A stretch of DNA of 29,548 bases. Source: an uncultured Erysipelotrichaceae bacterium. GTDB taxonomy: Bacteria; Bacillota_I; Bacilli_A; RF39; UBA660. Shown here piece by piece: positions 6,156 through 28,148 of this stretch. Position 1 is the first letter of the stretch; each line of letters starts with the position of its first letter. The position numbers were made by a program, and so were the translations under genes. Location: assembly GCA_902768065.1 (NCBI GenBank), contig CACXJP010000008.1:1-29548 (forward strand), read 5' to 3'. The notes below the pieces were generated by a model. It searched no databases. It worked only from the letters and a program-made list of their open reading frames with translations, and was not told the DNA's origin.

Positions 6156-6210
6156 TAACATATAAGATACTATGAGAATATGTTCTCTAATATGGAAGGT
6201 GGTGAAAATA

Positions 6211-6519
6211 ATGGCTTTAGATATGTCTAATGCTACATATGCAAGAAGTACAAGCGGAGCAAAGAAATTAAAAGAAACTTCATTCGCACAAGATATTGCA
6301 AAATTAAGAAAAGCCGTAACTGGTGATAAATATTCAAATATTAAGAAAGCTGTTGATGCAAACTGGGTTGGTGCTGATGCAAATGATTTCTTAAATGATA
6401 TAGCAAAATTAAGAAATGATATATTAGATAGAATTAGTAAATTACAAAAATGGTTTGATCAAGCAGTTGATTCAGAAGCAAAAGAATTTGCTTCATTCCA
6501 ATCAAAAAATGTTAAATAA
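6211..6519 (+). CDS. WXG100-family type VII secretion substrate
   Basis: From ATG 6211 (ribosome site GGAAGGTGGTG) this is a 102-residue, all-helical acidic/basic protein with no signal peptide. It has the classic WXG100 plan: two helices joined by a turn at mid-protein with W52-V53-G54 (NWVGADANDF). An in-frame ATG at 6172 would add 13 residues but has no ribosome site. WXG100 proteins are exported as helical-hairpin dimers by EssC-type ATPases and often act as partners for toxins. The next gene encodes a probable dimer partner, and essC-esaB lie immediately beyond on the other strand. No YxxxD/E tail is evident here. Confidence 0.85.
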   Translation: MALDMSNATYARSTSGAKKLKETSFAQDIAKLRKAVTGDKYSNIKKAVDANWVGADANDFLNDIAKLRNDILDRISKLQKWFDQAVDSEAKEFASFQSKNVK

Positions 6520-6546
6520 TTATAAATAATAAAGGAAGTGATTAAG

Positions 6547-6867
6547 TTGGCAGATATTACTGGTATTAACATAGCCAAAGTAGGAACAATTAAAGAAGCA
6601 ATCACTGCTTGGCGTAAAGAAATTGAAGCAGTTGATATTATTTCTTCATCAAAACAAGTCGCAGTAGCTGTTAAAGGAACTAATAAAGAAGCAGAAGTTA
6701 AATCATTGTGTCAATCTATGACATCATACGTTAAGAATTTAACTAGAAAATTAGAGGACTATAACAAAAGATTAGATGAAGTTATAGCTGCTTATAAGAA
6801 AAATGATTCTACAGCATCAAAAACATTATCTGATGCAAAAGTTGCAGTAAATCAATTAAAGAGCTAA
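6547..6867 (+). CDS. WXG100-like partner protein with YxxxD tail
   Basis: The ribosome site AAAGGAAGTG (6531-6540) points to a TTG start at 6547, giving 106 residues; the GTG at 6538 lies inside that site. The protein is helical and of WXG100 size, but the central turn reads V42-K43-G44 (AVKGTNKEAEV) instead of W-x-G. A YKKND sequence (Y83-D87) matches the YxxxD/E export signal of type VII substrates, which the neighbouring WXG protein lacks. The two are therefore a plausible heterodimer, one carrying WxG and the other the export signal, as in EsxA/EsxB-like pairs. The family assignment is inferred from size, fold pattern and context. Confidence 0.65.
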   Translation: MADITGINIAKVGTIKEAITAWRKEIEAVDIISSSKQVAVAVKGTNKEAEVKSLCQSMTSYVKNLTRKLEDYNKRLDEVIAAYKKNDSTASKTLSDAKVAVNQLKS

Positions 6868-6886
6868 TATATGTGCTCTTTTTTTA
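6858..6886 (+). terminator. Terminator of the WXG100 operon
   Basis: Stem AAAGAGC / GCTCTTT with a ten-base loop, followed by a T-run. It overlaps the stop codon of the second WXG-type gene. Confidence 0.75.
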
Positions 6887-6888
6887 TG

Positions 6889-6916
6889 AAAAAAAACAGA
6901 CATATTTGTCTGTTTT
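6889..6916 (-). terminator. Terminator of the essC-esaB operon
   Basis: A ten-base-pair stem AAAACAGACA / TGTCTGTTTT with a four-base loop. On the minus strand it runs into eight U residues, ending transcription that comes from esaB. With the terminator at 6858-6886 it insulates the convergent operons. Confidence 0.75.
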
Positions 6917-7175
6917 ATTTTGATAATAATACTAATAAAGTACCATTTCTAATATTTGTATTTGCAAGAAGAATGTCTGAGGTATAGAGCTCTTTAGTAG
7001 TTAAATTATATAATCTATTATCTTTTGATAATGTGAATTCACCATCGGTTAATTCATTTATTAATTTGTTTAATAGGATGATTATATTTCCGATTTTTTT
7101 ATTAATTGGTAAATAGACATCAAAGTTTTTATCTATTTCTGGTACATTAATATTAACTAATACTTTATTATTCAT
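6915..7175 (-). CDS. esaB: YukD/EsaB ubiquitin-like type VII secretion protein
   Basis: An 86-residue protein with a beta-grasp pattern: opening strand KVLVNINVPEIDKNFDVYLP, a central helix KIGNIIILLNKLINEL, then strands ending NIRNGTLLVLLSK. The 'G-x-x-L' ending and length match EsaB/YukD, the small ubiquitin-like cytoplasmic component of Firmicutes type VII (T7SSb) systems. It starts two bases after the essC stop, with its AGGAGG ribosome site inside the last codons of essC, so the two are one translationally coupled operon. EsaB is required for or regulates T7SS activity in studied species; the mechanism is not settled. Confidence 0.82.
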   Translation of the reverse strand: MNNKVLVNINVPEIDKNFDVYLPINKKIGNIIILLNKLINELTDGEFTLSKDNRLYNLTTKELYTSDILLANTNIRNGTLLVLLSK

Positions 7176-7177
7176 AA

Positions 7178-10100
7178 TTAATCATCCTCCTGAGGAATTG
7201 TTCCAATACCCCTTAAAACAACATTTTCATTATCAGTACTACAATATACAATTCCATTAAAGTCCTCATTTATCTCACCTTTAGTTAATTTGTCATATGA
7301 AATTGCAGCTTGGCTTTCAATATCAGTACCTACCCAAACTCCAACATTTTTATTAACTTGCTTTTTATACCATTCTTCATCCATTGTTTTTCTAAATGCT
7401 GAATAGTTGTCAATTATAATAAAGCTAGATTTTTTGTATGCATCAACATTATCAAATATTTTAAATAAGTATTCAATTCCTTCATCTAAAACTTTGTCAT
7501 ATATTCGACCTATACCAATAATTAAATAAATAATATTTTTTGTTTCTTCTTTTTCCTTGATAGTTATACTTTTTATAGATTTTGTGAACTCATCACCCAT
7601 ATAATCATCAATTTCACTAGGATCATCAATTGCACCAGCAAAGTCAATTATTCTTAATTTTGACTCTTGTACTAAGCTTAATACTTTAACCAACTCATTA
7701 AGAAAATTCTTTTCATTGATAATATAATTTCCAATTATTTGCGTAATCTTATTTTTCATTAAATCTAATGAGAACACATTTGCATCTTTAATATTAATTC
7801 CCATAGGAACAGATGATAGGTTGGTTATGTAAGGTGCTATAGTATCTGCAGTAACAACAGAAGGTATGACTGGTATTTTAGGAGCCTTTTTCTGTGATTT
7901 TGAAAGTGTTTCAGCTGCTGATTTTATCGCATCATTTATTTTATCTTTGTAGTAAATATATGCTCCTTGGAATTCATATGCACAATCATCAATTACACAT
8001 AATCCTCTAGAGTATTCTTTCTTTGGTATTAATCCATCTCTTGCATCAAGTATATACTTATAATCAAAAGAATCAGACATTTGCAAAGTAATTTTATTAG
8101 TAAAGTATTGTTGTGTAATACCAATCATAGAATTAGAAGCTACTATAGAAGTAATAAATATTATTCCATATTTTGAAGACTCTCTTAAGATATGAGCTAT
8201 AATATCAACATAATCAGAATAAGACTCAGCAAAAGCATCCCATCCATTTAAAACTACTAATATAGTTGGAAGCTTTTTACCACTATTTTTAATATAATCA
8301 TTGTAAGAACCACCATATTCAGAAAACAATTCTTTTCTTCTAATTTGTTCTCTTTCAAGCATTACAATTAAACTTTTAATTTTATCATTATCATCTATTA
8401 ATGCAACATCACCGACTTGAGGCATATCCTTTAGATTTTTTATTATTTCAGCTCCAAAGTCTAATATATAGGTATTTACCTCATCTGATGTATGATATAA
8501 GAATATAGAATAAAGAATAGTCATTATCAAATTTTCTTTTCCAGAACCAGCAAGTCCATATATTAATAGATTACCACCATTAGAAAGGTCAATAGAGAAT
8601 TGACCCTGAAATTGTTTCTCGGGATCATCATATTCTCCAACTAGTGGACAAATATTATACTTTTCGGCCTTGTAATTATATTTCTTTAGTAAATTAGATA
8701 TATATAATGTCGCAGGCAAGCTTGGTAACCACATAGACCTACAATCAATCTTTTCACGTTTAGCGATATTATAAAGAGTTTGAACTATATTTGTTAATTG
8801 TTCTCCATGATTTTCTTGGCTTTCTTCCTTTATATCATTAATACTATTTATAACTTCACCAACATTATTAACTAAATCAATTGAGTCGTCTATATTCTTT
8901 ATAATATGATCAGTAGGGTTATATTTAGCACCAGCCCAAGCCGATTGCCCTAATTCAAACGACTCGTTAAATCCAACTTGTAAATAGAAACGACCAGTTT
9001 CTTTTATTTCAGCTGCTTCAGGTCTCCTTAATAATTCTCTAGAATCTTCAGCTGTAGCAACTTTTAAACATACTTTAAAACGTGAGTTAGACCATATTTG
9101 ATCATCAACAACACCAGCTGGTTTTTGTGTTGCAAGAATTAAATGTACTCCAAGAGAACGTCCAATACGCGCTGTTGAAACTAAAGCCTCCATAAAGTCT
9201 GGTTGTTGAGACTTAAGTTCAGCAAATTCGTCAGATATTATAAATAGGTGAGACATTGGTTCTTTTACTTTTCCTTCTCTATAATACTTTTGATATTTGT
9301 AAATATCAATTGTACTTTCATTTAATGAATCTCTTGCTTCATTAAACATTCTTTGTCTTCTTTTTAACTCTGAATTGATAGAAACCAAAGTTCTATTCAT
9401 TTCGCTAACATCTAAATTTGTGATTGTTCCAGCTAGGTGAGGAAGTTTTATACCGGATTCTTTATTTTCAAAAGCTCCTGCTAGACCTCCACCTTTATAA
9501 TCAATCAAAACAAATTGTACTTCATATGGATGGTAATTAACTGCCATTGACAATATAAAAGTAATAATAAATTCTGATTTACCAGAACCAGTAGAACCTG
9601 CAATCAAACCATGTGGGCCACTTGCTTTTTCGTGTAAATCCAATTCAAATATTTTTCCATCTTCATGTACTCCTATTGGAGCGGCAATAGAATTTGTTGG
9701 ATCATTTTTTGCCCATCTATTTAAAATATTTAATTGTTCAATTTTTCCGACTTTATACATTTCCAAAAAAGCAAATGATTTTGGTAATTTACCTGCAGTA
9801 GATTCTATTGCAAGTGGAATGTTTGCAATTACATTGGCATAGTTTTTTATATCATCATATAATAAATCTGGTTTAAAAGAATTTTGTTCATCATTTTCAT
9901 TAATATTTTTATTAATTATTCCACAAGCTTCATTTGATATTTGAACAATATTATCACATTTACTTGGAACATTCTGCATTGTAGGTTCAATCATCATCAT
10001 AGAAAAGCCCGCATTATAAGGATGATTAAGTATTTTTTGGAAAATTCCCAATCTCTTAGATGCAACATAGTTATCAGTTATTATTAAATAATACTGGTCA

Positions 10101-11803
10101 AAGTTTTTATAGGCTTCATCTAGATTGTTTTCACCGCTCTTTTGCTTATCTTCAAATTTTTCTCCATCTTCATCACCATTTTTCTGATTCATAAAATCCC
10201 ATCTACTTTGGTATATCTTTTCAAGGTAATTAGATAATTGCTTTGCTTCATCTTCATTTTCAGAATAGAATCTAAATTTTCTTGTTTCATTGTGACAGTG
10301 AGGTAAATATTTCAAGAATTTCCACTGATTTGAATTGTCTTCAGTAGTGAAAACAACTATTTTTAAATCATTACCACTGTAATAAGAAATAAATTGAAGT
10401 AGTAAAAAGTCAATAAATTGCTTTTTATAAGTATAATCATATGAAATAATAAATGGTAAAACATTATTTTTAGTAAGAGATATTGTAATAGGAACTTGCT
10501 CTAGTATCCATTTTTGTTCAGATAATTCCTGAGCCTCAGCATTTAAAACATCTTTATCAATGTCATAAGCTAACTTATTTGTTGATAATTTAATAGCTGC
10601 CTTTTGATTACCTATACCTAATCTTACATTTAAAAAATCACTATCACTTATTTCTCGACTCCACAGCTTATTTGAATTATTAGTAATAAATTCTTTTAAT
10701 TGATCTTGGTTGAAATAGTTATCAAATAAAATCTTTGTTTCCTTCTGAATTTCTTCATTTACTTCGTTTCTAACTTTATCCAAATAATCTCGATATGTTT
10801 TTTTTCTATGTGCTTCTCTCTTGTTTGTAAGTCGTTTAGAGTAATTAGAAATAATAATTGGTAAAACCATAGTTCCTAATACCATAGTAACACATAGAAC
10901 TATCTCAGCAGATGCATCAACTAATGCAACTTTTCCAGATGTTACCCTTGAAACTGTAACCATACCTGTAAATAAAGAAGAGAACCCCATTACTGCAGTA
11001 GAACCTACACTCAAAATGGCAGGCATCTTATCTCCTTCAACTATTTGAGGAGGTCTTTCTATAAATATTTCCTTTTCTTCAATTGCTTCTTTTAGTCTAG
11101 GAGTGTGGAAGAATACTTGATTGTCATTATACAAAACTACAGATTTTTCTGTATCTTTAACAGGGGTATATTTATTTATTTCTTCAGTTCCATCAGAATA
11201 ACTTTGATATTGAGTTAGATTTGTCATTACTTTTCCAGAAAAGTTATTAAACCTAATAAAGGTATCCATCCATATTATTTTCAACCCATTAGTAAAAATA
11301 ACATCACCCATATTTAGAATTGTTTTTCTAACTCTATAATTATTCACATAAACTCTAGTTGGCTCAAACCCGTTATCTTCAAGAACCCAAAGATTATTTT
11401 GTTTATATATCTTTAATTCTGGTGAGCCAACATTTACATTGTCATATAGGATTTCACAAGGGCCACTTCTTCCAATTGTAAGCTCCATTCTTGTTGATAG
11501 ATCATAATCAAAAAATGTTTGATGTTCATCTACGCAATATAAAAAAACTTTATCAGTTAAATCACTAAACTGAATAGAGTAGATAGAATCATTTTGTACA
11601 ATTTCTTTGTCAATTTTATTAATGTCTTTAAAAAAAGTAATATCTGGAGTACTTTCTATAACCCAGTTATTATTATCTGCCATAAAAGTAATAGTTTCTT
11701 CTTCACCAGAATAGTGAACATAATTAATTAAAAAGGCATCTTCAACTTTATTAGGCAATAAATAAGTAAATATTTTATAATCATCAACTAAGTATAACTT
11801 CAT
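7178..11803 (-). CDS. essC: EssC-type FtsK/SpoIIIE ATPase, motor of type VII secretion
   Basis: About 1541 residues from ATG 11801-11803 (ribosome site AAAGGGT); an upstream GTG lies inside that site. The order is typical of EssC/YukBA: N-terminal beta-rich region and FHA-like domain (LTIGRSGPCEI; about residues 1-230), two membrane segments (about 265-325), then three FtsK/SpoIIIE domains. ATPase 1 has Walker A GSTGSGKS (about 734) and Walker B FVLIDYKGGG, and looks active. ATPase 2 has GLAGSGKE (about 1081), where Glu replaces the usual Ser/Thr, and a weak Walker B (LVVLNGWDAF). ATPase 3 (about 1350 on) lacks a Walker A, so both look degenerate, as is common for C-terminal EssC domains. It pumps WXG100 substrates across the membrane. 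EssA, EssB and EsaA are not in this window. Confidence 0.92.
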   Translation of the reverse strand: MKLYLVDDYKIFTYLLPNKVEDAFLINYVHYSGEEETITFMADNNNWVIESTPDITFFKDINKIDKEIVQNDSIYSIQFSDLTDKVFLYCVDEHQTFFDYDLSTRMELTIGRSGPCEILYDNVNVGSPELKIYKQNNLWVLEDNGFEPTRVYVNNYRVRKTILNMGDVIFTNGLKIIWMDTFIRFNNFSGKVMTNLTQYQSYSDGTEEINKYTPVKDTEKSVVLYNDNQVFFHTPRLKEAIEEKEIFIERPPQIVEGDKMPAILSVGSTAVMGFSSLFTGMVTVSRVTSGKVALVDASAEIVLCVTMVLGTMVLPIIISNYSKRLTNKREAHRKKTYRDYLDKVRNEVNEEIQKETKILFDNYFNQDQLKEFITNNSNKLWSREISDSDFLNVRLGIGNQKAAIKLSTNKLAYDIDKDVLNAEAQELSEQKWILEQVPITISLTKNNVLPFIISYDYTYKKQFIDFLLLQFISYYSGNDLKIVVFTTEDNSNQWKFLKYLPHCHNETRKFRFYSENEDEAKQLSNYLEKIYQSRWDFMNQKNGDEDGEKFEDKQKSGENNLDEAYKNFDQYYLIITDNYVASKRLGIFQKILNHPYNAGFSMMMIEPTMQNVPSKCDNIVQISNEACGIINKNINENDEQNSFKPDLLYDDIKNYANVIANIPLAIESTAGKLPKSFAFLEMYKVGKIEQLNILNRWAKNDPTNSIAAPIGVHEDGKIFELDLHEKASGPHGLIAGSTGSGKSEFIITFILSMAVNYHPYEVQFVLIDYKGGGLAGAFENKESGIKLPHLAGTITNLDVSEMNRTLVSINSELKRRQRMFNEARDSLNESTIDIYKYQKYYREGKVKEPMSHLFIISDEFAELKSQQPDFMEALVSTARIGRSLGVHLILATQKPAGVVDDQIWSNSRFKVCLKVATAEDSRELLRRPEAAEIKETGRFYLQVGFNESFELGQSAWAGAKYNPTDHIIKNIDDSIDLVNNVGEVINSINDIKEESQENHGEQLTNIVQTLYNIAKREKIDCRSMWLPSLPATLYISNLLKKYNYKAEKYNICPLVGEYDDPEKQFQGQFSIDLSNGGNLLIYGLAGSGKENLIMTILYSIFLYHTSDEVNTYILDFGAEIIKNLKDMPQVGDVALIDDNDKIKSLIVMLEREQIRRKELFSEYGGSYNDYIKNSGKKLPTILVVLNGWDAFAESYSDYVDIIAHILRESSKYGIIFITSIVASNSMIGITQQYFTNKITLQMSDSFDYKYILDARDGLIPKKEYSRGLCVIDDCAYEFQGAYIYYKDKINDAIKSAAETLSKSQKKAPKIPVIPSVVTADTIAPYITNLSSVPMGINIKDANVFSLDLMKNKITQIIGNYIINEKNFLNELVKVLSLVQESKLRIIDFAGAIDDPSEIDDYMGDEFTKSIKSITIKEKEETKNIIYLIIGIGRIYDKVLDEGIEYLFKIFDNVDAYKKSSFIIIDNYSAFRKTMDEEWYKKQVNKNVGVWVGTDIESQAAISYDKLTKGEINEDFNGIVYCSTDNENVVLRGIGTIPQEDD

Positions 11804-11831
11804 AATATACACCCTTTATCCTATTCTATAT

Positions 11832-21367: not shown

Positions 21368-21420
21368 TACTTTATTTATATCCATTTTTATTGTAAAATT
21401 ATTATAGGTAGGTGTCTGAT

Positions 21421-21696
21421 ATGATATTGGATTTAGATAAGATAAGAGAAATATATGGAGATAGTTCTATAGAAGAGTTAAATGATAATATTGAAACCTT
21501 ATCAAATAATATGAACTATTTAATTAAATTAGGATTTGGTGATGTATATGATACAGTATCTCTGTATCCTTATATGTTTCTAATAGAAGAGAAAACATTC
21601 AAAGAAAAAGTAAATGAGTTAATAGATAATTTAGGATATGATTACATAGAAATTCTTGAAGAAGACACTAGTCTTTGGGAGAATGTAAATGAATAA
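21421..21696 (+). CDS. Small helical protein, mTERF-like
   Basis: From ATG 21421 (ribosome site TAGGTAGGTG) this is 91 residues; a GTG nine bases upstream lies at the edge of that site. It is acidic and helical. The segment NYLIKLGFGDVYDTVSLYP followed by a hydrophobic turn and KVNELIDNLGYD resembles one mTERF-type repeat (helix, L-x-x-LGF, helix, YP turn, helix). The stop overlaps the next gene's start by eight bases, so the pair is translationally coupled and the products may work together. Function is unknown; the mTERF resemblance is by eye and tentative. Confidence 0.5.
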   Translation: MILDLDKIREIYGDSSIEELNDNIETLSNNMNYLIKLGFGDVYDTVSLYPYMFLIEEKTFKEKVNELIDNLGYDYIEILEEDTSLWENVNE

Positions 21697-23962
21697 AGAT
21701 GATAAACTAATAGAAGTAATAAATAAATATGGATTAAAATTTACCAAAAAAAGATTAGAACATATCCTTGATAATGCTAAATACCAAGAGGTTGACTATA
21801 TCTTAAACTATCTAATAAATGATCTTCATATAAGCCCAAGAAGTATAGAAAAATGTCCAAGTATTCTATATCGTAAGGTATCTGCAGTAAAAGAAAATTA
21901 TGAATTCTTAAAAAATAAACATTTATTTAATTATAATGTTGAAACATGCCTTCATATTTTAGCAACTAATCCAGAAGATCTTGAAGAAACTTATGATTGT
22001 GTTGCTTCAAATTTTGGAGAAGATATTATAAATAAAAATACAACGATACTTAGAATTTCAAAACAAAGAATAGAAGATATTAACTTATACTTTGGACAAT
22101 ATATAGATGATCAAACATTAATTGGAGCTTGTATTACAAACAGAACACTTATGGATATTGCAAAGATAATTCATACGTGTAGAAGAAATAACATAAAAGT
22201 AACTAGTACTGTCTTTAAACAAACTCCAGAAGAAGTAGAAAAGTTAATTAGATATTGTAAAAAAAATAACATAGAAATAACTGGAGGTATTTTTCATAAG
22301 AAAACTGAAGAATTAGATAAGTTGATTAAATATTGTACAAAAAATAATATTAAAATGACTAATAGTATGTTTTCCTGTCCATTAGATGATTTTATGGAAA
22401 TAGTTGAAACATGTAAAGAAAATAACATTGATATTACGGGAGTAGTATTTAGAAAAGATTCTGAAGAAATAGAAGAAATAATATCAATCTGTGAAGAGTT
22501 TAATTTACCAGTTAAACTAACAATGTTTAGATCAAATCCGGAGGAAATGAGAAGAATAATAGAGATTTGCAATAAATACAATGTAGAAATAAATGAATCA
22601 ATGTTCTCAAAAAGTTCAACAGAGGTAGAAAAGATAATATTAGTCTGTAGGAATAATAATATTTATCCAATTACGGGAAGTTTATTTAAAAAGAATGCAG
22701 AAGAATTAGAAAAAACAATTAAAATGTGTAAAGAATTGAATATACCAATAGAAGGTTCGGTATGCTACAGAACTGCTTCTGAAATTGAGGAAATAATAAG
22801 AATATGTAAATCAGAAAATATAAAACTACTTAATTCTATGTTTAAAAGAACACCCACTGAAGTTCAAGAAATAATTATAATAGCAAAACTAAATAAACTT
22901 GATATAACAGGAGGACTATTTAGAAATCCTCCAATTGATTTAAAGAGGACAATAACCGCTGCAAGAAGATCAAATATTCCATTTTCTTCTACAGTACTAA
23001 ATAGAACACCTCATGAAATAAAAAAGATAGTTAATATATGTAAAAATAGTGGAATACCTCCATTTCCAAATGCCTTTATGAGAAGCATAAAAGAAATCAA
23101 AAAAATAATAAGAATATGTAAAGAAAATAATATTCCTATCACAGGATCATTATTTCAAACAAATCCAGATAACCTTGAAAAAATAATAATGCTATGTCAA
23201 AAAAATAATATAAAATTAAGTAATGCAATGCTATTTAGGTCAGCAGAAGAAGTTGAGTTAATAATTAACATATGTGATCAATATGGTTTAGAATATCAAG
23301 ATGGTATATTCAAAAGAACACCAGATGAAATTCTAAAAATAATAGAGGTATGTAGAAATAATGATATTCCTATAACAAGTAATGTTTTTAGAAGAAAATA
23401 TAATGAGTTTATTGAAATTATTGAAGTATGTAATAAATTAGGATTAGATATAAAAGGAACAATTTTTAAAAGGAATGCCCAAGAAATAGAAGAAATATAT
23501 AATATTAACATGGAATTACTTGGTGAAAAGCCATCACCAAACACATTTAATAAGAAACCAGATGAGGTAAGAAAAATACTTGAGTTATGTCAAAAAAATA
23601 ACATAAAAGTAACAGGAACTATATATAGAAGACGAGCAGATGAACTTGAAGAAACTATAAATTATGTAAAAGATACCTTTGGACCAGAATATTTAATACC
23701 TCAAATAATTATTGAAGATAAAAATCATCTCCAGGTTGTTTTAAATTATTTCTTGGGAAAAGGACTTTTAAGTGTTATAATAAATAGCCCATCCATCTTA
23801 AGACTTACTATAACTGAAATAGTAGATAGAGAAAATTTCATAAGTAATTGTAATCAAGAATTAATAACTAGTGATGGAAAATTCAATCCTGTCTTTGGGT
23901 GGTCAAGAAAATTATATGAAAAAAAGAAAAAAGAATTAGAAGAAAGAAAAACTTTAAAATAG
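21689..23962 (+). CDS. Tandem-repeat solenoid protein (26-residue repeats)
   Basis: A 757-residue protein without signal or membrane segment. The N-terminal part (about 1-148) has mTERF-like helices (SPRSIEKCPSIL, YEFLKNKHLF). Residues about 149-645 are about 19 consecutive repeats, nearly all exactly 26 residues. Consensus by position: F1, R/K3, P5, E6-E7, I/V8, I11-I12, C15, K16, N18-N19, I20, I/V22, T23, then small polar residues at 24-25 and a hydrophobic at 26. Cys15 is kept in 16 of 19. A degenerate 20th unit and another mTERF-like piece (INSPSILRLTITEIVDRENF) follow. The regular helix-turn solenoid recalls nucleic-acid-binding mTERF, PPR or TALE-type folds, but I know no family with this exact unit. 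RNA or DNA binding is inference. Confidence 0.75.
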   Translation: MNKDDKLIEVINKYGLKFTKKRLEHILDNAKYQEVDYILNYLINDLHISPRSIEKCPSILYRKVSAVKENYEFLKNKHLFNYNVETCLHILATNPEDLEETYDCVASNFGEDIINKNTTILRISKQRIEDINLYFGQYIDDQTLIGACITNRTLMDIAKIIHTCRRNNIKVTSTVFKQTPEEVEKLIRYCKKNNIEITGGIFHKKTEELDKLIKYCTKNNIKMTNSMFSCPLDDFMEIVETCKENNIDITGVVFRKDSEEIEEIISICEEFNLPVKLTMFRSNPEEMRRIIEICNKYNVEINESMFSKSSTEVEKIILVCRNNNIYPITGSLFKKNAEELEKTIKMCKELNIPIEGSVCYRTASEIEEIIRICKSENIKLLNSMFKRTPTEVQEIIIIAKLNKLDITGGLFRNPPIDLKRTITAARRSNIPFSSTVLNRTPHEIKKIVNICKNSGIPPFPNAFMRSIKEIKKIIRICKENNIPITGSLFQTNPDNLEKIIMLCQKNNIKLSNAMLFRSAEEVELIINICDQYGLEYQDGIFKRTPDEILKIIEVCRNNDIPITSNVFRRKYNEFIEIIEVCNKLGLDIKGTIFKRNAQEIEEIYNINMELLGEKPSPNTFNKKPDEVRKILELCQKNNIKVTGTIYRRRADELEETINYVKDTFGPEYLIPQIIIEDKNHLQVVLNYFLGKGLLSVIINSPSILRLTITEIVDRENFISNCNQELITSDGKFNPVFGWSRKLYEKKKKELEERKTLK
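22133..23623 (+). repeat. About 19 tandem 78-bp units coding 26-residue repeats
   Basis: The DNA under residues 149-645 of the solenoid gene is a tandem array with a 78-bp period; three units (the first, the seventh and the eighteenth) are 81 bp. Units have diverged strongly at the base level, keeping mainly codons for F1, I11-I12, C15, N18-N19 and T23. The array therefore looks old and under protein-level constraint rather than recently amplified. Confidence 0.8.
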
Positions 23963-26464: not shown

Positions 26465-26968
26465 ATGTTAAATAAACAGAATCTATGGTTTATAACTTTA
26501 TTTAGTCTAATACTTATCTTAGGAATATACTATGTCACAATACCTAATGATGTATTAGAAAAAGTAAATAAAAAAGTAAAGAATAATGAAGAACAAGTAG
26601 TCGCAGAAGTAAAAGAAGAATTATCTCCTCTAGAAACACTAAGAGTAAGCAAAGAAACATCTAGAAAAGAAAAAATAGAGTCCCTAGAAAACACTCTAAC
26701 AAGTAATAATTTAACTACAGAAGAAAAGAATAATACTTATGAATTACTAAAGTATTATAATGAATTACAAGGTAAAGAAGAAAAATATGAAAAGAAATTA
26801 AAGAAAAATTTTGATCTAGATTGTTATACAAAAATAGATAATAGAAATATAGATATTATTTGTATTTCAAATGAGCATGATAGAAAGCTTGCTAATAGTA
26901 TAATGAGAACAATCCAAGAAGAGTATAAAGAAAAAATGAATATTGTAGTAAAGTTCCAAAAAAAATAG
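26465..26968 (+). CDS. spoIIIAH: SpoIIIAH-like stage III sporulation protein
   Basis: A 167-residue protein opening with NKQNLWFITLFSLILILGIYYVT, the signature N-terminal membrane span of SpoIIIAH, followed by a charged helical linker and a C-terminal ring-building-like domain (about 105-167, with helix NEHDRKLANSIMRTIQEEY and strand MNIVVKF). SpoIIIAH sits in the mother-cell-derived membrane and joins SpoIIQ across the intermembrane space to form the feeding-tube channel during engulfment. It normally belongs to the eight-gene spoIIIA operon; here it stands alone, next to gerE and gerM. Ribosome site CGGAGG. Confidence 0.75.
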   Translation: MLNKQNLWFITLFSLILILGIYYVTIPNDVLEKVNKKVKNNEEQVVAEVKEELSPLETLRVSKETSRKEKIESLENTLTSNNLTTEEKNNTYELLKYYNELQGKEEKYEKKLKKNFDLDCYTKIDNRNIDIICISNEHDRKLANSIMRTIQEEYKEKMNIVVKFQKK

Positions 26969-27024
26969 GTATATAACTTAAACACAAATATATATTATTC
27001 ATAATATATTATAGGTGATTTTAA

Positions 27025-27228
27025 ATGAATTACATTTTAACTCCAAGAGAAAAAGAAATATTTTGTCTATTGATTGAGAATAATAATACCAAAGATATTG
27101 CCCATAAATTAGGAATAAGTGAAAAAACAGTAAGAAACCATATATCCAATGTAATGCAAAAACTTGGAACCAAGGGAAGGGCAGCAACAGTAATAGAATT
27201 AATAAAACTAAAAGAATTGTCTATATGA
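27025..27228 (+). CDS. gerE: GerE-like LuxR-type HTH regulator
   Basis: A 67-residue stand-alone LuxR-type DNA-binding domain: LTPREKEIFCLL, then helix-turn-helix TKDIAHKLGISEKTVRNHISNVMQKLG, ending in a short leucine-rich helix. Length and absence of any receiver or ligand domain match GerE, the late mother-cell regulator that acts with sigma-K on spore-coat genes. Adjacency to GerM and SpoIIIAH supports this over a generic LuxR regulator; in Bacillus subtilis gerE and gerM are also near each other. Ribosome site TAGGTGAT. The TGA overlaps the upstream in-frame extension of the next ORF. Confidence 0.78.
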   Translation: MNYILTPREKEIFCLLIENNNTKDIAHKLGISEKTVRNHISNVMQKLGTKGRAATVIELIKLKELSI

Positions 27229-27275
27229 GCGTACTAAATAAGTACGCTTTTTCATATAATTATTTAGGTGATAGT

Positions 27276-28148
27276 ATGCAAATAGTAAGAAAGCTTTTTT
27301 ATACAACATTAACAACTTTCATTCTAATTTCTATATTGACAATAACTAGTATCAAAGACAACACTCTAAGGACAAATCTAGAACTTGAAAACATCATCAA
27401 TATGAAATCAAATTCAATTTACTTATTAAATAAAGATAATTATCTAACAAAAGTAGATATTTTTTTAGATAAAGACAAACCAAAGAACCAAGTAATAGAA
27501 ATAATAAACTATTTGAAAGAAAATAATAAAAAAATAGAATCAAATTACAAGGGATATATTCCTAGTAATACAGAAATATTAGATTTAGAAGTTAAAAATA
27601 ATATTTTGTATTTAAATTTATCAAAAGATGTCACAAAGAATAATATAGATATTGTAATACCAGGTCTTGTAAGATCACTTTTAGATATAAAATCAATTGA
27701 TAAAGTAAATTTAAAAATAGAAGGGAGTTATCTAAATAATTATGATTATCTATTAGATAATAAAATACCCATAAATAGTGAATATGAAATAGATAATAGA
27801 AAAAATATTAATGAGGTAATAATATACTATTTATCAAATGATAACAATTATATTCCTATAACAAAATACTTAAATGATGATAGGGAAAAAATAGAGGTAA
27901 TAATAGAAGAATTAAAAGAAAATAGTAATGATAATTTAATTAGTTATTTGAATAATAATATTAAATTAATAGACTATGCAGAAGAAAATGATATTTATTT
28001 TTTAAATTTTAATAGTTTTTTAAATGATGATGACAAAACATTAGATTACAATCTATATGAAATAGCATATTCAGTCTTTGATAATTATAATGTTTCATCA
28101 GTAATGTTTAAAATAAATGATAATAATCTAAAAATAATTCATAAATAG
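27276..28148 (+). CDS. gerM: GerM-like protein with two GerMN domains
   Basis: From ATG 27276 (ribosome site TTAGGTGAT), 290 residues with an N-terminal membrane anchor (about 8-25); the longer frame from 27225 lacks a ribosome site. Two related domains follow: about 40-150 (NSIYLLNKDNYLTKVDI ... NILYLNLSKDV) and about 180-290 (VIIYYLSNDNNYIPITKY ... IYFLNFNSFL). The pattern of opening strand, helix and 'V-x-x-x-x-LYLNLS' strand is that of the GerMN domain. No lipobox Cys is present, unlike the Bacillus subtilis lipoprotein. GerM there supports assembly of the SpoIIIA-SpoIIQ complex, which fits the neighbouring SpoIIIAH. Confidence 0.72.
   Translation: MQIVRKLFYTTLTTFILISILTITSIKDNTLRTNLELENIINMKSNSIYLLNKDNYLTKVDIFLDKDKPKNQVIEIINYLKENNKKIESNYKGYIPSNTEILDLEVKNNILYLNLSKDVTKNNIDIVIPGLVRSLLDIKSIDKVNLKIEGSYLNNYDYLLDNKIPINSEYEIDNRKNINEVIIYYLSNDNNYIPITKYLNDDREKIEVIIEELKENSNDNLISYLNNNIKLIDYAEENDIYFLNFNSFLNDDDKTLDYNLYEIAYSVFDNYNVSSVMFKINDNNLKIIHK

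Follow-up and report, generated by a model that had tools for sequence, protein, structure and literature searches.

A tandem 26-residue repeat protein with an acidic partner gene, a candidate modular DNA reader of uncultured Bacillota

The repeat gene, its partner and the predicted fold

The window analysed here is a stretch of 29,548 nucleotides from an uncultured Erysipelotrichaceae bacterium (assembly GCA_902768065.1, contig CACXJP010000008.1). Its forward strand carries a gene for a repeat protein of 757 amino acids (21689..23962, ATG start), in which 20 units of 26 residues stand between an N-terminal domain resembling the mitochondrial transcription termination factors (mTERF) and a C-terminal cap. 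The start of this gene overlaps by 8 nucleotides with a small gene on the same strand (21421..21696), the product of which is an acidic protein of 91 amino acids with an isoelectric point (pI) of 4.1 and a net charge of -16, referred to here as the partner.

The array spans residues 145-666 (22121..23686), as delimited by self-similarity, unit alignment and the predicted model. A lag of 26 gave the highest self-similarity (mean BLOSUM62 score 1.14), with lags 78, 52 and 104 next in order, while the highest score reached by the shuffled protein was -0.42 (200 shuffles, all lags). The 20 units start at residues 145, 171 and so on to 641, with a spacing of 26 in 17 of 19 cases and 27 in the other two. 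They are numbered here as I1-T2-G3-S4-V5-F6-x7-K8-T9 ... C20 ... N24-I25-P26. The original prediction of a tandem 26-residue array is therefore borne out. Its F1 is position 6 in this numbering, its second residue is position 7 and its positions 24-25 are positions 3-4, where the series of residue pairs that it listed (ST, GG, NS, GV through to GT) is correctly found. The conserved cysteine is also present, at position 20; the count of 16 in 19 units becomes 15 of 19 when counted from the unit at residue 171, or 16 of 20 when that at residue 145 is included.

The N-terminal domain occupies approximately residues 1-144 (21689..22120) and is common to the members found with 26- and 29-residue repeats. 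When an alignment of 17 such domains (A3) was compared with PDB sequences, MTERF3 was the top match (E 7.7e-4), and MTERF1, MTERF3 and MTERF4 made up 11 of the 14 matches at E ≤ 1. The C-terminal cap (residues 667-757; 23687..23959) was recognised by invariant or nearly invariant alignment columns, with F732, N733, F736 and G737 conserved across the members with 26-residue units. Of the mTERF-like flanks proposed for the array, the N-terminal one is thus upheld, while the C-terminal one has weak support (hhalign against mTERF-type units, E 2e-4, probability 47%).

The predicted structure of the protein is a confident one as regards fold, with a predicted local distance difference test score (pLDDT) of 91.7 and a predicted template modelling score (pTM) of 0.50. 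It agrees with the regular helical solenoid that had been proposed, resembling transcription activator-like effectors (TALEs) and mTERF proteins. The proposal of one helix per unit did not hold, as two are present in 17 of the 19 units that begin at residue 171 or later, these being a short helix and a helix of 13 residues. In most units the short helix ends at or adjoining the variable residue after F6 and is followed by the 13-residue helix carrying the cysteine. The best fold matches in the PDB are TAL effectors and DNA-bound MTERF1, although with low TM-scores; the Foldseek rows at E ≤ 0.001 are TAL effectors without exception, and MTERF4-type chains from mitoribosome entries also occur among the matches. 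By sequence, the window protein gave no PDB match below E 0.042.

The partner gene did not feature in the original prediction. Its product has no Pfam family at E 0.01, and its profile found nothing under E 0.16 among PDB sequences. Of 46 loci (the window and 45 others described below), 38 have a partner homolog adjoining the repeat gene; in 37 it is recognised by the profile of the window partner and in one (L025) by a profile of partners from loci with 29-residue units. Three loci have no partner match (L008, L012, L041), as do five loci with 29-residue units (L014, L016, L019, L020, L029), which end at a contig edge before the expected place. Of the partners for which charge was counted, all 27 are acidic (pI 4.1-4.8, net charge -6 to -16). 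Weak mTERF matches at E ≤ 1 were obtained for 10 of 24 partners, the best being 5.9e-5.

Upstream of the partner gene, the only clearly conserved stretch among ten loci (the window and nine others) is a block at 21389..21420 on the forward strand, consisting of a TATAGTAAAAT-like motif followed by ATAGG..GGTG. From its sequence this block looks like a -10 box with a ribosome-binding site. It is possibly also an autoregulatory target of the array; as a block with the former role would be kept for that role anyway, no target site is deduced from its conservation.

Family members, unit types and array variation

A phmmer search yielded 72 relatives of the window protein (7,993 candidates scored), and 157 proteins were found to possess the N-terminal domain of one relative, P0010 (best 120 of 157 listed). 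Scanning of the GTDB species genomes with the A3 profile gave 45 loci, every one titled as a metagenome-assembled genome (MAG). The titles refer to Bacilli, Bacillota, Bacillales, Clostridia, Tenericutes, Lachnospiraceae and Erysipelotrichaceae, many of them naming an animal gut; the title Actinomycetes, given to L002, is probably a label or binning error. In the class of the genome containing L032 (G013), A3 matched 5 of 395 genomes, one match being weak and partial (at most 10 candidates scored per genome), so the family looks scattered. Twenty genomes chosen from the loci carry one to five repeat genes each (one to six rows before fragments of the same frame were removed), and in three of these (G004, G012, G017) at least two stand in tandem. 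At L031, L035 and L038 and in genomes G012 and G017, adjacent repeat genes with differing arrays are accompanied by a single partner gene.

One kind of N-terminal domain is joined to two kinds of array, type A with 26-residue units, as in the window, and type B with 29-residue units of the consensus SEEFKEHPELFTSxTLAHAKIEDIQKMIQ, which show three helices. Each array type usually has a particular kind of C-terminal domain, the exceptions being L043 and L044, where a type A array precedes a type B-looking C-terminus. The partners of both types are homologous (hhalign P 2.6e-11); they precede the repeat gene in most type A loci but follow it in some, as they do in type B loci. At L030 (10001-11917) the type B array is apparently frame-broken near its end, and a second array piece precedes the partner gene.

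With respect to their arrays, members behave in two ways. The orthologs of the window protein (L022, L032, L036, L040, L042, L045) are of near-equal length (734-770 amino acids), their arrays align unit by unit, and synteny is largely kept in the order ileS, partner, repeat gene, glutaredoxin-like gene, short-chain dehydrogenase and methionine gamma-lyase-like gene. Deviations are two additional open reading frames (ORFs) before the partner in L032, in which no glutaredoxin-like gene was detected, and one additional ORF in L042. Since the window protein and these orthologs keep a fixed array, they presumably serve a fixed chromosomal site. In other members the array is homogenised, its length changing in steps of 26 residues: among 21 proteins with identical first 140 residues, lengths range from 419 to 523 with 13 distinct strings of position-7 residues, and 13 proteins sharing a second N-terminus have 13 distinct strings. 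Most of these varying-array members are known from public assemblies alone, probably short-read metagenomes, and as such assembly may miscount or misorder near-identical units of 78 bases, the differences in length and order call for long reads.

The partner profile was also used as bait in the 20 genomes. Of 32 rows, 19 were strong and lay at repeat genes, 12 were weaker and lay elsewhere, and one was a fragment of 63 bases at the edge of a contig. In ten of the weaker places a large gene is followed by a small ORF, with overlap in eight cases and distances of 1 and 323 bases in the others (ORF starts set at the first ATG); nine of these ORFs have a pI of 4.2-5.6, and that of L075 has a pI of 9.0. 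The remaining two matches fall within ORFs of 385 and 386 amino acids, which resemble tyrosyl-tRNA synthetase. The large genes are diverse. L069 (3760-5151) encodes a 463-residue protein of a further repeat type, with units of about 30 residues (LLTPxIWxSxYEEIxxILxMxEWNDxxF), and is followed by a partner-like acidic ORF. L068 (5709-8551) encodes a helicase-like protein that contains helicase-associated (HA) repeats (PF03457, E 1.9e-54) and has a PADLOC match to mREase_IV (E 1.4e-9); a partner-like acidic ORF comes directly after it. L066 (3625-5296, 465 amino acids) and L067 (4809-6270, 397 amino acids) share another long repeat (INELHRLP...FxDGxNQxxFY), have partner-like ORFs behind them and adjoin a gene that is presumably ftsZ. 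L071-L075 encode proteins of 566-622 amino acids with stretches that look mTERF-like by eye, then partner-like small ORFs. No Pfam match above cut-off was obtained for the large genes of L066, L067, L070, L071, L073 and L075.

Several assignments were considered and rejected. The window protein scores 48.8 bits against FAD_binding_4 (cut-off 26.4 bits, E 7.7e-13), but the best stretch covers 22 residues of a 139-position model, and its matches to EexN (31 residues) and to PADLOC Cas2 (30 residues) are similarly short. As different relatives match different unrelated families, such matches were judged to be effects of repeats or composition. A defence system was not accepted, the PADLOC matches of the window protein (Cas2, AbiEii) being weak and short and the partner having none. 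Neither was an origin from mobile elements, as tblastn of P0010 against phages (50,697 records) and plasmids (72,556 records) found no match, and A3 gave no confirmed relative in IMG/VR. In PHROGs, the window protein, its partner and relative P0085 matched families of unknown function alone, while relative P0008 also had a weak match named for an RNA polymerase beta subunit.

Elsewhere in the window, the other strand carries at 6172-11812 small ORFs of 115 and 109 amino acids and a 1544-residue FtsK/SpoIIIE protein (Pfam FtsK_SpoIIIE; nothing for the small ORFs), which we take to resemble a type VII secretion locus. Shortly downstream of the repeat gene (26465-28148) lie SpoIIIAH-like and Germane-domain sporulation genes.

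A candidate specificity residue and its meaning

The original prediction placed a variable, possibly reading pair of residues at what are now positions 3-4. A variable residue in each unit was indeed found; as prime reader, however, the pair gives way to the residue after F6, with position 7 being strongest in three separate counts. The first is entropy, where position 7 is highest with 3.16 bits, followed by position 11 with 2.78 (427 units from 52 proteins, including the degenerate first unit of many). Taken by locus, it has the top entropy in 14 of 18 loci, these being the 29 loci with at least five recognised type A units minus 11 loci with long fixed arrays; the exceptions are L006, L010, L011 and L024, of which L010 and L011 encode nearly the same protein. 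The second is the comparison of near-identical units, defined as pairs from the same protein with at most four differences over the 25 positions other than the one examined. Different residues at position 7 are seen in 218 of 303 such pairs, at 1.43 base changes per codon, and position 4 is second (135 of 258, 0.63 base changes). Of the 18 loci, 15 contribute to the 303 pairs, with most coming from L003, L004, L028 and L043.

The third count concerns seven full-length orthologs with 20 units, leaving aside the truncated L033 and L037 and the more distant L031, L035, L038 and L039. Identity at position 7 is 0.59 between the same units and 0.09 between other units, a ratio of 6.3, with position 3 next at 3.0; excess mutual information is likewise highest at position 7 (1.27 bits) and second at position 3 (1.05 bits). 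Position 7 thus varies among units but stays in place among species, as expected of a residue reading a fixed target. The pair comes after it, position 3 being second by ortholog mutual information but absent from the top eight in near-identical units, where position 4 is second. Judged from these alignments, position 7 is the most reader-like residue, this being our strongest candidate, with lesser parts for positions 3 and 4.

The charge pattern is in agreement with this. In 955 distinct type A units from 167 proteins, chosen by likeness to a consensus containing K8 with position 7 left free, the basic fraction at position 8 is 0.83 and the acidic fraction is 0.00 at both positions 7 and 8, whereas positions 11, 12, 14 and 18 are acidic in fractions of 0.58, 0.90, 0.62 and 0.49 respectively.

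Type B units have a comparable variable place at position 14, within a near-fixed LFTS-x-TLA, where 322 units from 52 proteins (not de-replicated) show T 137 times, Q 97 times, E 79 times and others 9 times. It differs in 144 of 211 near-identical pairs from the fetched loci. Position 18, mostly H (204), then R, Y, S, N and K, differs in 64 of 207 pairs and ranks fifth. Units of the PF02536 type, about 35 residues long by eye, vary at two places in P-x-I-Y-z (2.79 and 2.45 bits in 53 pieces, the neighbours being fixed by the selection pattern). In a register set by eye on the second helix, type B positions 14 and 18 fall on type A positions 3 and 7, and the variable places of PF02536-type units on 4 and 7. 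Given the register by eye and the predominance of G at type A position 3 (671 of 955 distinct units), the correspondence among unit types is a loose one.

Taken together, the window protein is probably a modular, sequence-specific superhelix for double-stranded DNA, of the TALE and mTERF kind, built of two-helix 26-residue units and co-expressed with an acidic partner. In such a protein the short helix of each unit would turn position 7 towards the DNA bases, possibly one residue per base, with position 3 or 4 contributing less, while the Lys or Arg at position 8 would face the backbone, with the acidic residues placed on the other helix. At its two ends the array would be capped by the mTERF-like domain and the C-terminal domain respectively. 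Long fixed-array orthologs may occupy a single conserved site in the chromosome, possibly their own promoter, and the partner would most likely regulate access of the array to DNA, either by shielding it, by capping it or by connecting it to another factor.

Three alternatives were weighed. In the first, which we regard as unlikely, the same superhelix would bind a conserved structured or single-stranded RNA such as ribosomal RNA (rRNA), with position 7 reading RNA. MTERF4 is an rRNA binder, chains of its type from mitoribosomes are among the fold matches, and the fixed arrays and position-7 residues of the orthologs would suit a housekeeping RNA target. The top fold matches, however, are TALEs and DNA-bound MTERF1, the varying arrays of other members would be unexpected for an rRNA factor, and the related pTERF1 binds DNA with nanomolar affinity (PMC11417379). 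Somewhat less probable still is a solenoid with a variable surface recognising proteins or peptides, its main ligand being the 91-residue partner. The frequent co-occurrence of the two genes (38 of 46 loci) fits this, as does the fact that alpha solenoids often bind proteins; the predominance of basic residues at position 8, in 83% of distinct units, the near absence of acid at positions 7 and 8, the Foldseek rows made up of TAL effectors and the conservation of the partner family while the array varies all speak against it. That the array is a mere scaffold resized by unequal recombination, with position 7 a tolerant surface site, would explain the 26-residue length steps among proteins with an identical N-terminus but is very improbable, as position 7 is kept unit by unit in orthologs and almost never acidic, and silent differences at other codons show that some of the units are not recent copies.

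Beyond the DNA-binding superhelix itself, a wider reading is put forward tentatively, as something that may well not hold in full. Gut Bacillota would possess a modular DNA-reader system in which one capping architecture takes interchangeable arrays of 26- or 29-residue units (with relatives of about 30, as in L069), one or two residues of the short helix read DNA and arrays diversify at strain level. The acidic partner would control binding and be shared with other repeat proteins, including the HA-repeat helicase-like protein, and the T, Q and E of the 29-residue unit would be the part of a base code that can be read.

Relation to pTERF, mTERF and TAL effectors

The claim that no 26-residue family of this kind is known holds insofar as no Pfam or NCBIfam family credibly fits, but has to be qualified by the published pTERF proteins, which are close, although the reported unit differs (PMC11417379). 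No other description of such a family was recognised in the parts consulted of the literature on prokaryotic or Bacillota mTERF proteins, metagenomic TALE-like repeats (2023 on) and RF39 tandem repeats, and a term search of a TALE-inspired repeat screen (PMC5472282) gave no matching passage. In Pfam, PF02536 is not among the best 25 of 28 matches of the window protein (E up to 10) and was seen in one of ten relatives, in the N-terminal domain and below cut-off (16.4 against 23.1 bits). Neither TAL effector nor PPR-type models occur among those best 25 of 28 matches or in the ten relatives at E 0.01 (best 25 of 29 for one of them).

Among 191 genomes of the order to which the genome of L012 belongs, 20 have a PF02536 match above cut-off, against none of 14 control genomes; the PF02536-type repeat proteins of that order are probably pTERF proper. 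Against them hhalign gave weak similarity for type B units (E 5.4e-4, probability 30%), the N-terminal domain (0.015, 3%) and type A units (2e-4, 47%). A small acidic ORF (pI 4.1-4.5, net charge -13 to -22) lies near the PF02536-type gene in 4 of 10 fetched loci. Homology of these ORFs to the type A and type B partners was not accepted, as the partner hidden Markov models (HMMs) found no match and hhalign was weak (P 0.0018 and 0.27), so that the arrangement alone is compared; the sole match of a partner HMM (p90) in these loci is a weak one (E 2.5e-7) to a 291-residue mTERF-like frame of L064.

As described in the passages covered, pTERF1 and pTERF2 are tandem mTERF-like proteins from MAGs of mostly Bacillota, pTERF1 being from the ruminant gut, with low identity to eukaryotic mTERF and 3-11 units of three helices annotated as mTERF motifs (Hu et al., 2024; PMC11417379). 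pTERF1 binds ACTNNNAGTC with a Kd of 1.87 nM and pTERF2 binds another motif; sequence-specific DNA binding was thus demonstrated, and reprogrammability suggested (PMC11417379). The window family likewise consists of tandem mTERF-like helical repeats in Bacillota-type MAGs. It differs from pTERF, going by that description, in its 20 units of two helices and 26 residues, and in possessing a partner gene, of which the passages covered make no mention. From MTERF1, MTERF3 and MTERF4 the window protein differs in that the mitochondrial motifs are three-helix and non-tandem (PMC11417379).

The top fold matches in the PDB, TAL effectors and TALE-likes such as dHax3 and BurrH, share with the window protein two-helix repeats with a variable residue and a cysteine late in the second helix. 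TALE repeats consist of 33-35 residues, with the variable residue between two helices and a conserved cysteine late in the second. The window family is unlike them in its 26- and 29-residue units, in having one dominant variable residue at position 7 (with lesser ones at 3 and 4) in place of the dipeptide alphabet of repeat-variable diresidues, and in its mTERF-like N-terminal domain, its Bacillota-type MAGs and its acidic partner gene. We know of no comparable regulation by an acidic partner from TALEs; the conserved partner would point to a regulatory principle, which is also not mentioned in the pTERF passages covered.

We therefore consider the window protein and its partner to represent a new class of repeat, and a new gene pair, among modular DNA readers of the TALE and mTERF kind, with binding and code as we infer them here. 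If this is correct, Bacillota would have a one-residue-per-unit DNA reader more compact than the TALEs (26 against 33-35 residues per unit), the natural arrays, varying mainly at one residue on a near-constant frame, would be a ready library for deducing its code, and the link between mTERF and TALE proteins in bacteria would be extended.
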